NCBI RefSeq assembly: GCF_025152575.1
Contig: NZ_CP102293.1
Coordinates: forward strand, 2,170,001-2,234,000
DNA: 64,000 bases
Reading direction: 5' to 3'
DNA from: Subdoligranulum variabile
GTDB taxonomy: Bacteria; Bacillota; Clostridia; Oscillospirales; Ruminococcaceae
Shown: positions 21,782-28,064 of the stretch, piece by piece
How positions within the stretch are numbered: position 1 is the stretch's first letter
Layout: every line of letters begins with the position of its first letter
The notes under the pieces: model-generated
The model's database searches: none
What the model saw: only the letters and a program-made list of their open reading frames with translations
What the model was told of the DNA's origin: nothing
Translations under genes and position numbers: made by a program

Positions 21782-22477
21782 TTGGAAGGTTTTAAAGAAG
21801 CCCTGGTTGATGCCCTTGCCAATGAGACCGCGTTCACGATCCCGGTCCTCGGCGGCATTCCCATCAGCTCGGCCGTGCTGGTGACCTGGATCATTATGGC
21901 GTTCTGGATCATCTTCACGCTGCTGGCCACCCGCAATCTGAAGGTCAGCAACCCCGGTAAGCTGCAGGTCATTCTGGAATCCGCCGTGGAGTTCCTCAAC
22001 GGATTCGTCAAGGAGACCATCGGCCCCCACTGGCGGCCCTTTGCCCCCTATCTGGGCAGCGTGGCGCTTTACATCGGCCTGGCAAACATCATCAGCATTT
22101 TCGGCCTGACGCCCCCCACCAAGGACGTCAGCGTGACCGCCGCCCTGGCGTTCATGAGCCTGGTGCTGATCTACGGTGCGCAGTTCCGCTACAACGGTCT
22201 GCGCGGCGGTATGAAGCGTTTTGCCGACCCCATGCCTGTGCTGCTCCCCATCAACCTGATGGAAATCGCCATCCGTCCGCTGGCGCTGTGCATGCGACTG
22301 TTCGGCAACGTTCTGGGCGCTTTCATCATCATGGAGATCATCAAGTACCTGGTACCCGCCGTGGTGCCCGCCGTCTTCTGCATCTACTTCGATCTGTTCG
22401 ACGGCCTCATCCAGACCATTGTCTTTGTCTTTTTGACCGCTCTGTTCGCAGGCGAGGGCATCAAGGAAGAAGAGTAA
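21782..22477 (+). CDS. atpB: F0F1 ATP synthase subunit a
   Basis: 231 residues, proton channel subunit of F0. Helix 4 carries the essential Arg in IRPLALCMRLFGNVLGAFIIME; the PxxKDVSVTAALAFMSL and C-terminal QTIVFVFLTALFAGEGI segments are typical of subunit a. The start is TTG at 21782 with AGAGGTGAAC 6 bases before it; no ATG fits. It heads the eight-subunit operon in the order a-c-b-delta/alpha-gamma-beta-epsilon. No atpI precedes it, and the 200 bases upstream show no convincing promoter. Confidence 0.93.
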   Translation: MEGFKEALVDALANETAFTIPVLGGIPISSAVLVTWIIMAFWIIFTLLATRNLKVSNPGKLQVILESAVEFLNGFVKETIGPHWRPFAPYLGSVALYIGLANIISIFGLTPPTKDVSVTAALAFMSLVLIYGAQFRYNGLRGGMKRFADPMPVLLPINLMEIAIRPLALCMRLFGNVLGAFIIMEIIKYLVPAVVPAVFCIYFDLFDGLIQTIVFVFLTALFAGEGIKEEE

Positions 22478-22543: not shown

Positions 22544-22762
22544 ATGTCTATCGGAATCATCGCCGCAGGTCTCGCAGTTCTCACCGGTTTTGGCGCCGGT
22601 ATCGGTATCGGCATCGCCACCGGCCACGCCAGCGACGCCATCGCCCGTCAGCCCGAAGCATCCGGCAAGATCAACAGCACCCTGCTGCTGGGCTGCGCCA
22701 TGGCAGAAGGTACTGCCATCTTCGGTTTCATCACCGCGCTGATCATCATCTTCGTGGGTTAA
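22544..22762 (+). CDS. atpE: F0F1 ATP synthase subunit c
   Basis: 72-residue helical hairpin forming the rotor ring. The ion-binding carboxylate is Glu in GCAMAEGTAIFGF (about residue 53). The conserved polar loop is ARQPEASGK. The Na+ signature is lacking: the helix-1 Gln found in Na+-type rings is Ile here (GIGIGIATG), and the Glu is followed by Gly-Thr, not Ser/Thr-Thr. A proton-driven enzyme is therefore more likely. Start at 22544 has CAGGAGGAAA just upstream; the longer frame from 22502 has none. Confidence 0.93.
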   Translation: MSIGIIAAGLAVLTGFGAGIGIGIATGHASDAIARQPEASGKINSTLLLGCAMAEGTAIFGFITALIIIFVG

Positions 22763-22778: not shown

Positions 22779-23267
22779 ATGCTGGATTTCCAGCCGTGGA
22801 CGATCTTTTTTACCATCGTCAACCTGTTGATTTTGTATTTCTTTTTCCGCAAATTCCTGTTTGGGCGCATCAATGCCGTGCTTGAACAGCGTGAGCAGCT
22901 GATCCGCAGCCAGGTCGAGGAGGCCGAGAAAAACAACGCCGAGGCCCAGAAGACCAAGCAGGAATATGAGACGAAACTGGCCGGTGCCCGGCAGGAAGCC
23001 GCCGATCTGGTGGCGGACGCCAAGCGCCGTGCCGATGTGGCCTACGCCGACCGTATGGCGCAGGCCGAAGCCGACGCCAAGCAGACGGCGGCGGAAGCCG
23101 AGGCCCGCATTGCCGCCGAGCGCAGCGAGATGTTGCGCACTGCCCGCGGCGAAGTGGCCCATCTGGCCGTGATGGCCGCCACCGAGGTGGCCGGCAAGCG
23201 GCTGGATACCGACTCCGACCGTGCGCTGGCGGAGGAATTCTTGGCAAAGGTGGGTGAGCAGGCATGA
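22779..23267 (+). CDS. atpF: F0F1 ATP synthase subunit b
   Basis: 162 residues, the peripheral stalk. One N-terminal membrane helix ([22 protein letters not shown]) is followed by a long, charged, Ala/Glu/Lys-rich coiled coil that forms the dimer. AAGGAGGTG is 7 bases upstream of ATG. The stop overlaps the start of the delta-alpha gene by 4 bases (ATGA). The protein ends in an [11 protein letters not shown] helix that would contact delta in known enzymes. Confidence 0.92.
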
Positions 23268-25303
23268 GCGAAGCGACCGAGCGTTACGCTGCGGCCCTGT
23301 TCGGGGCTGCCCAGGGCGACGCGGGGGCCGTGCGCGCTGCCGCCGATGCCCTGATGGCGGACACCCAGCGCTGGAACGTGCTGGTGAGTGATGCCACCAC
23401 CGACGCCGAGAAGAAGGAGCTGCTGGCCGGTGCGCCGCAGCTGGACGGACAGGACGCGCTGAAGGCTTTCCTGCAGCTGCTGCTGGCGGAAGGTCATCTG
23501 AACGCCCTGCCGGAGATCCTGCCGGAATTTTCCCGCCTGGCACTGAATGCCCAGGGCGGTATGGAATGTGTGATGACCTGCGCCCGTCAGCCGGACGAGG
23601 CCACCCAGGAGGCCGTGCGCAAGGCGGCCTGCAAGCTGCGCGGCGCCGACAATGTGGTGCTGCAGATCAAGATCGACCCCAGCCTGCTGGGCGGTTTTGT
23701 GCTGGATATCGACGGCGTGACCTATGACCGCAGCGTCAAGGGCCGTCTGGACCGTCTGGCCCGCGGCATCGAGAACAACAACAGCGACGATACGCTGGAT
23801 CAGCTGGCTGCCCAGATGAAGGAGGCCCTCTCCGGTTCTGCCGGGGATACCATGGCCACCGAGACCGGCCGCGTGCTGGAGATCGGTGACGGCATTGCCA
23901 ACGTCAGCGGCCTGCGCCACGCCGTCTACGGCGAGCGCGTGGAATTTGAGAACGGCACCGCCGGTCTGATCCTGGACCTGCGCCGCAAGCGCACCGGTGT
24001 GGTGCTGCTGGGCAGCGCCGAGGGTCTGACCGAGGGCAGCCTGGTGCGCCGCACCGGCCGTCCCGCCGACGTGCCGGTGGGCGAAGCCCTCATCGGCCGT
24101 ACCGTCAACGCCCTGGGCCAGCCCATTGATGGCCTGGGCCCCATCGACTGCACCGAGACCCGCCCCATCGAGCATGAGGCCTCCGGCGTGGTCAGCCGTG
24201 AACCGGTCACCCAGCCCATGCAGACCGGCATCCTGGCCATCGACGCCATGGTGCCCATCGGCCGCGGCCAGCGTGAATTGATCATCGGCGACCGCCAGAC
24301 CGGCAAGACCTCCATCGCCACCGATGCCATCCTGAACCAGAAGGGGCAGGATATGATCTGCATCTACGTGGCCATCGGCCAGAAGGCTTCCACCGTCGCC
24401 CGCCTGCGGGAGACCCTGAAGAAGCACGGCGCCATGGAGTACAGCATCATCGTGTCGGCTCCCGCCGCCGAGGGTGCTTCCATGCAGTACATCGCTCCCT
24501 ATGCGGGCGCTGCCATGGGCGAATACTTCATGTCCAAGGGCAAGGACGTCCTCATCGTCTACGATGACCTGTCCAAGCACGCGGTGGCCTACCGTACGCT
24601 GTCCCTGCTGCTGCGCCGTTCTCCCGGCCGTGAAGCCTATCCCGGCGACGTCTTCTATCTGCATTCCCGTCTGCTGGAGCGCGCCTGCCGCCTGACCAAG
24701 GAGTACGGCGGCGGTTCCATGACGGCCCTGCCTATCGTCGAGACCCAGGCCGGCGACGTTTCGGCCTATATTCCCACCAACGTCATTTCCATCACCGACG
24801 GCCAGATCTACCTGGAAAGCGGCCTGTTCTTCTCGGGCCAGCGCCCCGCCGTCAACGTGGGCCTGTCGGTGTCCCGTGTGGGCGGTGCCGCCCAGACCCG
24901 GGCCATCAAGAAGACCGCCGGTACCCTGCGTATCGACCTGGCCCGGTACCGTGAACTGGAAGTCTTCACCCAGTTCAGCTCCGACCTGGACGCCGAGACC
25001 CGCCAGGCCCTGGACCACGGCAAGCGGATGATGGCGCTGCTGCGCCAGCCCCTCTGCTCGCCCATGTCGGTGGCCCGCCAGGCGGTTATCCTGTACATCG
25101 CCACCAACGGCCTGCTGAACGACGTGCCGGTGGAGAAGTCCGCCGCCTTCGCCAAGGATTTCGCCGACCTGCTGGAGCGCGAGCAGGCTGACCTGATGCA
25201 GGAGATCAACGAGACCGGTGCATTGTCCGGCACCGCCACCGAGCAGATCCGCACCACGCTGCAGAGCTACAAAGAGCAGGTGAGCGCCACATGGAAAGCA
25301 TAA
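23264..25303 (+). CDS. atpHA: Fused ATP synthase delta-alpha subunit
   Basis: One open frame of 679 codons. Residues 1 to about 172 are a full delta subunit ([17 protein letters not shown] ... [27 protein letters not shown]). Residues about 173-679 are a full alpha subunit: N-terminal helix [14 protein letters not shown], beta-barrel [17 protein letters not shown], Walker [10 protein letters not shown], and the SAAEGAS-like [16 protein letters not shown] and [14 protein letters not shown] regions. There is no stop and no in-frame ATG/GTG/TTG with a ribosome site at the junction; ATGs at 23816 and 23852 lack good spacing (AAGGAGG at 23819-23825 is 26 bases before the second). Normally these are separate genes with one delta and three alpha per enzyme. 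The stop overlaps the gamma start by 13 bases. A lost stop by sequencing error is possible but would have to be checked. Confidence 0.85.
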
Positions 25304-26214
25304 AGGAGATTCGCACCCACATCGACAGTGTGCAGCAGACCCTCAAGATCACCAACGCCATGTACCTGATCTCCTCCTCCAAGCTGCGCAAGGCCCGCCG
25401 TCAGCTGACCGACGTGCAGCCCTACTTTGAGAAGATCACCCAGACCATTTCCGACATTCTGCACCGCACGGCAGGCGTGGACCATGTCTACTTCGACACC
25501 CGTCCCGGCCGTCCCCACAAGGTGGGCTACATCGTCATCACCGGCGACAAGGGCCTGGCAGGCGCCTACAACCACAACGTGCTGCGCCTGGTGGAAGAGG
25601 AAATGGCCAAGGTGGAGGATCCCACACTGTTTCTGATCGGCCAGGCCGGCCGCAACTACTTCCAGCACAAGGGTGTCAACATCGACGGTGAGTTCATGTA
25701 CACCGCCCAGGACCCCACGGTCTACCGTGCCCGGGAGATCGGCGATACCTTCATCGAGCTGTTCCGCAAGGGACATCTGGATGAAGTGTACGTGGTCTTT
25801 ACCGAGATGGTCACCCCCATGCAGATGGAACCCAGGATGGTCAAACTGCTGCCCCTGGACCGCGACGCCTTCCCCTGGACTCCGCGCCGCAGCGCCGACG
25901 GCAGCGAACGGCACGTGGTGACCTATGTGCCGTCCCCTGAGCACGTGCTCAACCACATCGTACCTTCCTACCTGAAAGGGCTGCTGTTCGGCACCCTGGT
26001 GGAGTCCTTCTGCTCCGAGCAGAACGCCCGTATGAACGCCATGGACACCGCCACCGACAACGCCCGGTCCCTGCTGAAGGAACTGTCGCTGCACTACAAC
26101 CGTGCGCGTCAGTCCGCCATCACCCAGGAGATCACCGAGATCGTCGGCGGCGCGCAGCCGGGCGGCGATGACTGGGAGGACGACGACTGGGCCGACGAGG
26201 AAGCCGACCTGTAA
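25291..26214 (+). CDS. atpG: F0F1 ATP synthase subunit gamma, with acidic C-terminal extension
   Basis: 307 residues, the rotating shaft. The N-terminal helix ([35 protein letters not shown]) and the C-terminal helix ([38 protein letters not shown]) form the coiled coil. After the usual end near GGA there are about 20 extra, strongly acidic residues rich in D, E and W ([17 protein letters not shown]). The start lies inside the alpha coding sequence, an overlap of 13 bases. The usual gamma is about 285-295 residues. Confidence 0.92.
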
Positions 26215-27656
<1,442 letters not shown>

Positions 27657-27657
<1 letters not shown>

Positions 27658-28064
27658 TGGAAAAGACCTTTCAGCTGGAAATCATCACGCCGGAGCGCCA
27701 GTTCTATACCGGCCAGGTGGAAAGCCTCGTGCTGCCCGCCCTGGACGGCGAATACGGCGTCCTGCCCGGTCATGAGCCGGTGGTGACCGCCGTGGAGCCG
27801 GGCGAGGCCCGCTTCAAGGCGGACGGCGTCTGGCACAACGTCATTGTGACCCAGGGCTTTGCCGAGATCACCTCGGAGTATGCCGTGGTGCTGGTCTCCA
27901 CGGCGGAAAAGCCGGAGGAGATCGATGCGGCCCGTGCCGCCCGCGCCAAGGAGCGTGCCGAAGAGCGCCTGCGCCAGCACGGCAGCCAGCAGGAACATTT
28001 CCGCAGCAAGGCGGCCCTGGCCCGTGCCACAGCCCGTCTGCGTGCCACCTCGCACAGATCCTGA
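27657..28064 (+). CDS. atpC: F0F1 ATP synthase subunit epsilon
   Basis: 135 residues. The N-terminal beta-sandwich (FQLEIITPERQFYTGQVESLVLPALDGEYGVLPGHEPVVTAV) is followed by two C-terminal helices (EEIDAARAARAKERAEERL, and a last Arg/Ala-rich helix). In bacteria these helices can extend and brake ATP hydrolysis. It is last in the operon and followed by a strong terminator. Confidence 0.93.

Follow-up and report, generated by a model that had tools for sequence, protein, structure and literature searches.

As a rule given in textbooks, an F-type enzyme has a single stator stalk. Several peripheral stalks per rotary enzyme are known from the V- and A-type ATPases, whose three or two stalks are EG heterodimers made of different subunits; in stalk number they resemble what we propose below for the enzyme studied here, and we know of no delta-alpha fusion among them. 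The N-type ATPase is encoded by an operon without delta that specifies "alternate F1F0" subunits.

That the one-stalk rule can be broken has been shown by engineering. According to the passages of Ueno et al. 2025 (PMC12229609) on which we draw here, fusion of the delta C-terminal domain to alpha in the FoF1 of Bacillus PS3 yields enzymes whose stalks and a subunits number up to three and whose H+/ATP ratio is 5.8; few three-stalk particles were seen in cryo-EM, and the average was about two by SDS-PAGE. The same passages argue that the delta N-terminal domain limits the enzyme to one stalk and mention natural delta-alpha fusions without this domain (Acidaminococcus fermentans; UniProt G4Q3K6, A0A1I2C5T3). 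One paragraph there suggests, in print, that nature too may have broken the rule. Another subunit fusion, b-delta, is described in mycobacteria and Gordonia in the excerpt of PMC5709465 used here. The subunits of a butyrivibrio ATP synthase are counted in PMC4478896, in the available text of which the word "fused" is absent. Among the papers listed by the literature searches, no report of natural delta-alpha fusions beyond PMC12229609 was seen.

The delta-alpha frame and its operon

The window, a stretch of 64,000 nucleotides from Subdoligranulum variabile, contains on its forward strand a complete F-ATPase operon for all eight subunits in the order a-c-b-(delta-alpha)-gamma-beta-epsilon. Subunit a (21782..22477, TTG start; PF00119, 140.7 bits), subunit c (22544..22762, 72 aa; PF00137, 63.1 bits) and subunit b (22779..23267; PF00430, 95.2 bits) precede the fused gene, whose start overlaps the stop of b (ATGA). 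The fused gene is followed by gamma (25291..26214; PF00231, 316.6 bits), beta (26260..27657; TIGR01039, 793.6 bits) and epsilon (27657..28064; NF009980, 139 bits, cut-off 129), the latter with both of its domains (PF02823 and PF00401). The operon has one a gene and one b gene, and nothing was seen in it that would raise their dose.

The whole fusion gene (23264..25303) is a single ATG-started frame of 679 codons without a stop. A complete delta followed by a complete alpha had been read in it from the letters alone, and domain searches bear this out. The OSCP/delta family PF00213 matches residues 6-167 with 97.6 bits (Pfam cut-off 22.3), and the atpA model TIGR00962 of NCBIfam matches residues 179-673 with 747.1 bits, against a cut-off of 484.45. 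In the alpha part, Pfam places the beta-barrel at 200-265, the nucleotide-binding domain at 322-537 and the C-terminal domain at 544-668, so that the fused alpha has the full nucleotide-binding and C-terminal domains expected of an F-type ATP synthase. By the genes alone, the locus departs from the usual F-type arrangement of separate delta and alpha chains with one delta per three alpha. Codons 166-202 of the window sequence are sense codons throughout, and the join, which had been put near codon 172, lies at about codons 172-177.

An AlphaFold2 model of the fused protein, built from 14 sequences, has a mean pLDDT of 69.8, with 151 residues below 50, mostly in alpha. In this model, the delta N-terminal domain (residues 1-104; 23264..23575) comprises six helices, from 3-16 to 79-96, with block pLDDT of 73-86. 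The b-binding delta C-terminal domain (residues 105-171; 23576..23776), within which the OSCP match ends, has its last helix at 158-171. It is followed by the linker NNSDDT (residues 172-177; 23777..23794) and by a predicted helix of low pLDDT, the retained alpha N-terminal helix (residues 178-193; 23795..23842), which aligns with the same stretch in other fused proteins; pLDDT is below 50 over 172-198. A Foldseek search with the model returned chains of the engineered multi-stalk enzyme (9jc1) at ranks 1, 2 and 5.

Loss of a stop between two separate genes through a sequencing or assembly error is refuted, and its probability is practically nil. The search of relatives' genomes called for by the sequence-only reading has been run, and the same 679-codon frame aligns without gaps in five other genomes (G054, G151, G110, G189 and L088, a chicken Subdoligranulum MAG), which also excludes chance; stop-free fused frames occur at E<=1e-45 in 32 of 391 genomes of the class sample. 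The join carries no gene-start-like signal, versus -11.1 kcal/mol in the unfused relative L062, where the intergenic start site AAAGGGGG stands before the ATG. No evidence in favor of such an error was found.

The sequence-only reading held that this fusion was not known in bacteria, which is outdated in view of the natural delta-alpha fusions mentioned in the cited passages of Ueno et al. (PMC12229609). As judged from its domains, the window's form is a known kind of fusion in which the delta N-terminal domain is kept, and in this it differs from the published natural fusions. As described in that source, the engineered dN-delta-alpha FoF1 (PDB 9jc1) resembles it in the in-frame joining of the delta C-terminus to the alpha N-terminus by a short linker and in the separate b and a, but two domains that the window keeps are missing from it, the N-terminal one of delta (residues 2-104) and the C-terminal one of epsilon. 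The A. fermentans protein is likewise a natural delta-alpha gene fusion, set apart by the paper's description as lacking the delta N-terminal domain that is complete in the window. The mycobacterial and Gordonia b-delta protein (NCBIfam PRK13428) is also a delta-involving fusion in an F-ATPase operon, but, as the excerpt of PMC5709465 has it, b is joined to delta and alpha is free, whereas in the window b is a separate gene (22779-23267) and delta is joined to a three-copy subunit. The locus is not of the N-type, since delta is present and the alt_F1F0 models score below their cut-offs (alpha 603.7 versus 750.5).

The genome, a single contig of 3.24 Mb, encodes a second, conventional F-ATPase (C1:68-74k, L037), whose eight subunits and their order agree with those of the fused operon. 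Unlike in the fused operon, its delta and alpha are separate, and the genome's other delta match (C1:72033-72536) is the separate gene of this operon.

Internal start codons at the join

A hidden internal start could in principle make free alpha as well, fused and free alphas then assembling together. The two ATGs proposed for this from the sequence, at codon 185 (23816..23818) and codon 197 (23852..23854), are both present, the second closely preceded by GGGG. Their Shine-Dalgarno duplexes reach -3.3 and -5.7 kcal/mol, versus -9.7 to -16.0 kcal/mol at the seven gene starts of the operon; 22 of the 47 start-like codons of the frame pair equally well or better than the first ATG, and 13 of 47 than the second. 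Across the six orthologues, start-like codons 165-215 pair with -1.5 to -5.8 kcal/mol. The ATG at 23816 is conserved in all six, with pairing over this same range (-1.5 to -5.8 kcal/mol), and that at 23852 in four, being one codon off in L038 and absent in L088. Synonymous change is higher at the join than in alpha in 11 of 15 orthologue pairs, which counts against a hidden start, and an alpha begun at 23852 would be without its N-terminal helix. Pairing is not a sharp measure, since codons 118 and 364 of the frame pair as well as the weakest gene start, and weak start signals can be real, because the best signal among the candidates tried for the conventional alpha of the same genome is only -6.5 kcal/mol. 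Both ATGs were nevertheless rejected as alpha starts, and we consider the production of free alpha in this way very improbable.

Relatives, coupling ion and evolution of the fusion

The fusion is spread among relatives. A search of the family sample (197 genomes) with junction alignment A1, which has 17 fused rows, gave an alpha match at E<=1e-20 in 134 genomes and a stop-free delta-alpha frame in 23. Eight of these 23 have a full delta, 13 are without the delta N-terminal domain (five of the 13 calls being based on frame length alone), one is b-delta-alpha and one lies at a contig edge; a second, separate operon is also present in 14 of the 23. Among the matches listed for the phylum sample, a fused frame is found in at least 17 of 398 genomes, plus one at a contig edge. 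The family, class and phylum samples partly overlap, and all these figures, including that for the class given above, are lower bounds because they are drawn from sampled genomes. A full-length fusion with full delta is also found in Pseudobutyrivibrio xylanivorans DSM 14809 (L102; OSCP 71.4 bits).

In two relatives that group together on the alpha tree (100/99), a single frame holds a b-like membrane segment, the delta C-terminal domain and alpha: L049:5897-8146 (genome G120, 750 codons) and L154:7338-9596 (Ruminococcaceae RUG13294 MAG, 753 codons). The segment gives a weak PF00430 match in L154 (22.5 bits, below the cut-off of 28) and no PF00430 match in the L049 fused frame in the Pfam search, where calling it b-like is our own reading of the sequence. 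A separate b lies upstream of both frames (PF00430, 48.4 bits in L154 and 32.4 bits in L049). Carried by three alphas, such a chain would bring three b-like segments per enzyme, unless it is cut.

Other operons of the collection have peculiarities of their own. In two genomes of 0.7-0.8 Mb (G068 and G160), a small extra gene of 103 or 113 codons stands before alpha, besides a full delta (L054:6924-7232 and L055:6679-7017). It reads as an alpha N-terminal helix followed by a delta C-terminal domain, and could possibly be a socket for a second stalk. Two near-identical c genes are found at L044:7488-7976 (G019), and two c matches within one 157-codon frame at L229:1273-1743 (G103). At L050:2712-5045 (G075), beta and gamma are each broken over several frames, by either sequencing error or decay, and the adjacent delta-alpha frame is intact. 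Two short b-like frames replace the single b gene at L226:2217-2747 (G166), where delta and alpha are separate. The title of the MAG record L093, Bordetella parapertussis, is probably wrong: on the quick tree its alpha falls with that of an Acidobacteria MAG (SH-aLRT 89).

Na+-type c subunits have Q or E at the first and S or T at the second ligand position. The c subunit of the fused operon has I where Na+ types have Q/E, and G after the ion-binding Glu. Because its c is without the Na+ signature, we can predict H+ as the coupling ion of the fused enzyme. The c of the conventional F-ATPase (L037) differs in this respect, its two Na+ ligand positions being occupied by E and S. An RnfC match (422.9 bits, cut-off 245.95) is likewise found in this genome, as is a group-4 hydrogenase-like cluster, with a 49 kDa-type subunit (NiFe N-terminal match) and 30 kDa and 20 kDa subunits next to NADHdh and ferredoxin-like neighbours. 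Two ion circuits in this bacterium would be plausible.

In a first version of the family table, all 23 fused operons were without the Na+ signature and 42 of 44 separate ones had it, the separate rows being mostly those of best-scoring deltas. Nineteen further separate loci, most of them deliberately taken from lower in the match lists, gave nine without and ten with the signature. Within the family, fusion was observed only with a non-Na+ c (0 of 52 sampled Na+-type operons are fused), and at least 11 sampled family operons are unfused despite a non-Na+ c. Over all collected loci, counted after removal of 29 duplicates and before the addition of the 19, fused rows number 49 without and 3 with the signature (L162, L168, L170), and separate rows 43 without and 68 with it. 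A strict tie of fusion to proton-type c rings is rejected, with 11 non-Na+ family operons separate and three Na+-type ones fused elsewhere, and because both kinds of row exist the link between fusion and ion type is at most phylogenetic. Among the fused Na+-type rows, L162:7569-9647 (Firmicutes UBA3932) is a full-length delta-alpha fusion that goes against the trend of the window's family; on the alpha tree it groups with the separate L104 (97/97).

The history of the fusion was followed on alpha alone. On the main tree (64 hand-chosen, related rows, 480 columns, delta excluded), the fused/separate state needs eight changes, at least seven of them forced by starred branches; on a quick tree of 130 rows it needs six, five of them forced. 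A single origin is rejected by the repeated changes on both trees. These counts carry no direction, gain versus loss, and re-splitting may account for L098 and L226. The six full fusions that form the window's clade (100/100) lie within a set of separate operons, L231, L225, L223/L224, L227 and L062. L231 and L225 branch below nodes 100/93 and 100/99, L227 and L062 at 95/94, and L223/L224 at a weak node (88/62). Fused rows with and without the delta N-terminal domain are intermingled, with at least four changes in its presence, which we take to be losses.

The two delta domains evolve differently once fused. Since synonymous distances are partly saturated, dN alone was compared between them. 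In the fused clade, N-terminal dN exceeds C-terminal dN in 14 of 15 pairs, by 1.4 to 4.2 fold, the exception being the near-identical pair L040/L041. Five of these genomes also yielded a separate delta for comparison, and there N-terminal dN is the lower in all 10 pairs (one near-identical). The fused N-terminal domain is still under purifying selection (dN/dS 0.17-0.57). When the domains, delimited slightly differently, are compared by protein distance, the median N-/C-terminal ratio is 1.79 in the fused clade (13 pairs). Separate deltas come to 1.08 in the non-Na+ lineage (77 pairs) and 1.09 in the Na+ type (170 pairs); the contrast with the fused clade persists, but the two domains of separate deltas are about even here, without the reversed order. 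Binned by C-terminal distance, the fused clade has medians of 2.06 (0.05-0.2) and 1.64 (0.2-0.35), and the Na+-type separate deltas have 0.93 (2 pairs) and 1.14 (4 pairs); the fused pairs are few and related, and pairs of matched divergence are few. The simplest reading of these rates is that the tether now does some of the anchoring once done by the N-terminal domain, which would require that the chain be kept whole.

This bears on a further possibility, that a post-translational cut in the linker (about residues 171-178) restores ordinary delta and alpha and that the surplus delta is degraded. In favor of a cut, the linker is short, polar, fast evolving and modeled with low confidence, but no conserved site is visible in it among 17 aligned fused proteins. 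Moreover, a delta set free would depend on its N-terminal domain for its grip on F1, and this is the domain that evolves faster and is absent in many fused relatives. Cleavage is less likely because of this evolution of the fused delta, and we regard it as improbable.

Delta heads and stalks

The question of stoichiometry raised by the sequence-only reading was the right one to ask, the fusion being real: with delta fused to alpha, each F1 would have three delta heads. From the genes and their evolution, we are fairly sure that the delta-alpha chain is whole and its three heads tethered, and the operon most likely encodes a proton-type ATP synthase of this kind. We lean slightly towards an enzyme in which each F1 has three tethered delta heads and probably more than one b2 stalk, each with its own a subunit. 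The chain would be made and kept whole, the tether would replace the grip of the N-terminal domain on the alpha N-helices, and the extra delta heads would be taken up by extra stalks. Each extra a subunit would add proton flow per turn, as was measured for the engineered fusion by Ueno et al., which would allow ATP to be made at low proton-motive force. The retention of the N-terminal domain under purifying selection and the single a and b genes are points against several stalks. The weak model of alpha and the unfused state of at least 11 sampled family operons with a similar c subunit also weigh against the explanation as a whole.

The first two points belong to the main competing explanation, a fused enzyme with a single stalk, in which only one delta head serves, docked on the axis through its N-terminal domain and bound to b2 through its C-terminal domain, and the remaining two are idle. 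The sole service of the fusion would then be an assured supply of delta and a firm attachment of the stator. In line with it, the genes for a and b are single in the operon, and the full delta N-terminal domain is retained, folded in the model and under purifying selection; according to the cited part of PMC12229609, this domain restricts stalks to one. However, its rate of evolution is above that seen in separate deltas, and among fused rows it switches between present and absent at least four times, which disfavors a design dependent on docking; the b-delta-alpha relatives would also bring three b-like segments through their three alphas. We judge a single stalk unlikely, though a serious contender. 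Across the fused group, several stalks seem somewhat more probable than one. For the window's enzyme itself, one to three stalks would all be possible, because it keeps the full N-terminal domain and one docked copy may block the threefold axis.

It is conceivable, and we put it forward tentatively as rather less than an even chance, that the window holds an early natural multi-stalk ATP synthase, with up to three b2-a units on one c-ring and an H+/ATP ratio well above 5. With such an enzyme, a fermenting gut bacterium could still make ATP when the proton-motive force is insufficient for ordinary enzymes, and its relatives would have completed the change by giving up the delta N-terminal domain or by taking b into the fusion. 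The window and its relatives constitute a testable series, in which the same fusion recurs on several branches; the extra domain is retained in some cases and missing in others, or a b-delta-alpha chain takes its place, and beside them stand unfused sisters whose c subunit is of the same kind. If the multi-stalk reading is true, the H+/ATP ratio would depend not on the c-ring alone but also on how many a subunits there are, and estimates of how anaerobes synthesize ATP on small gradients would change accordingly.
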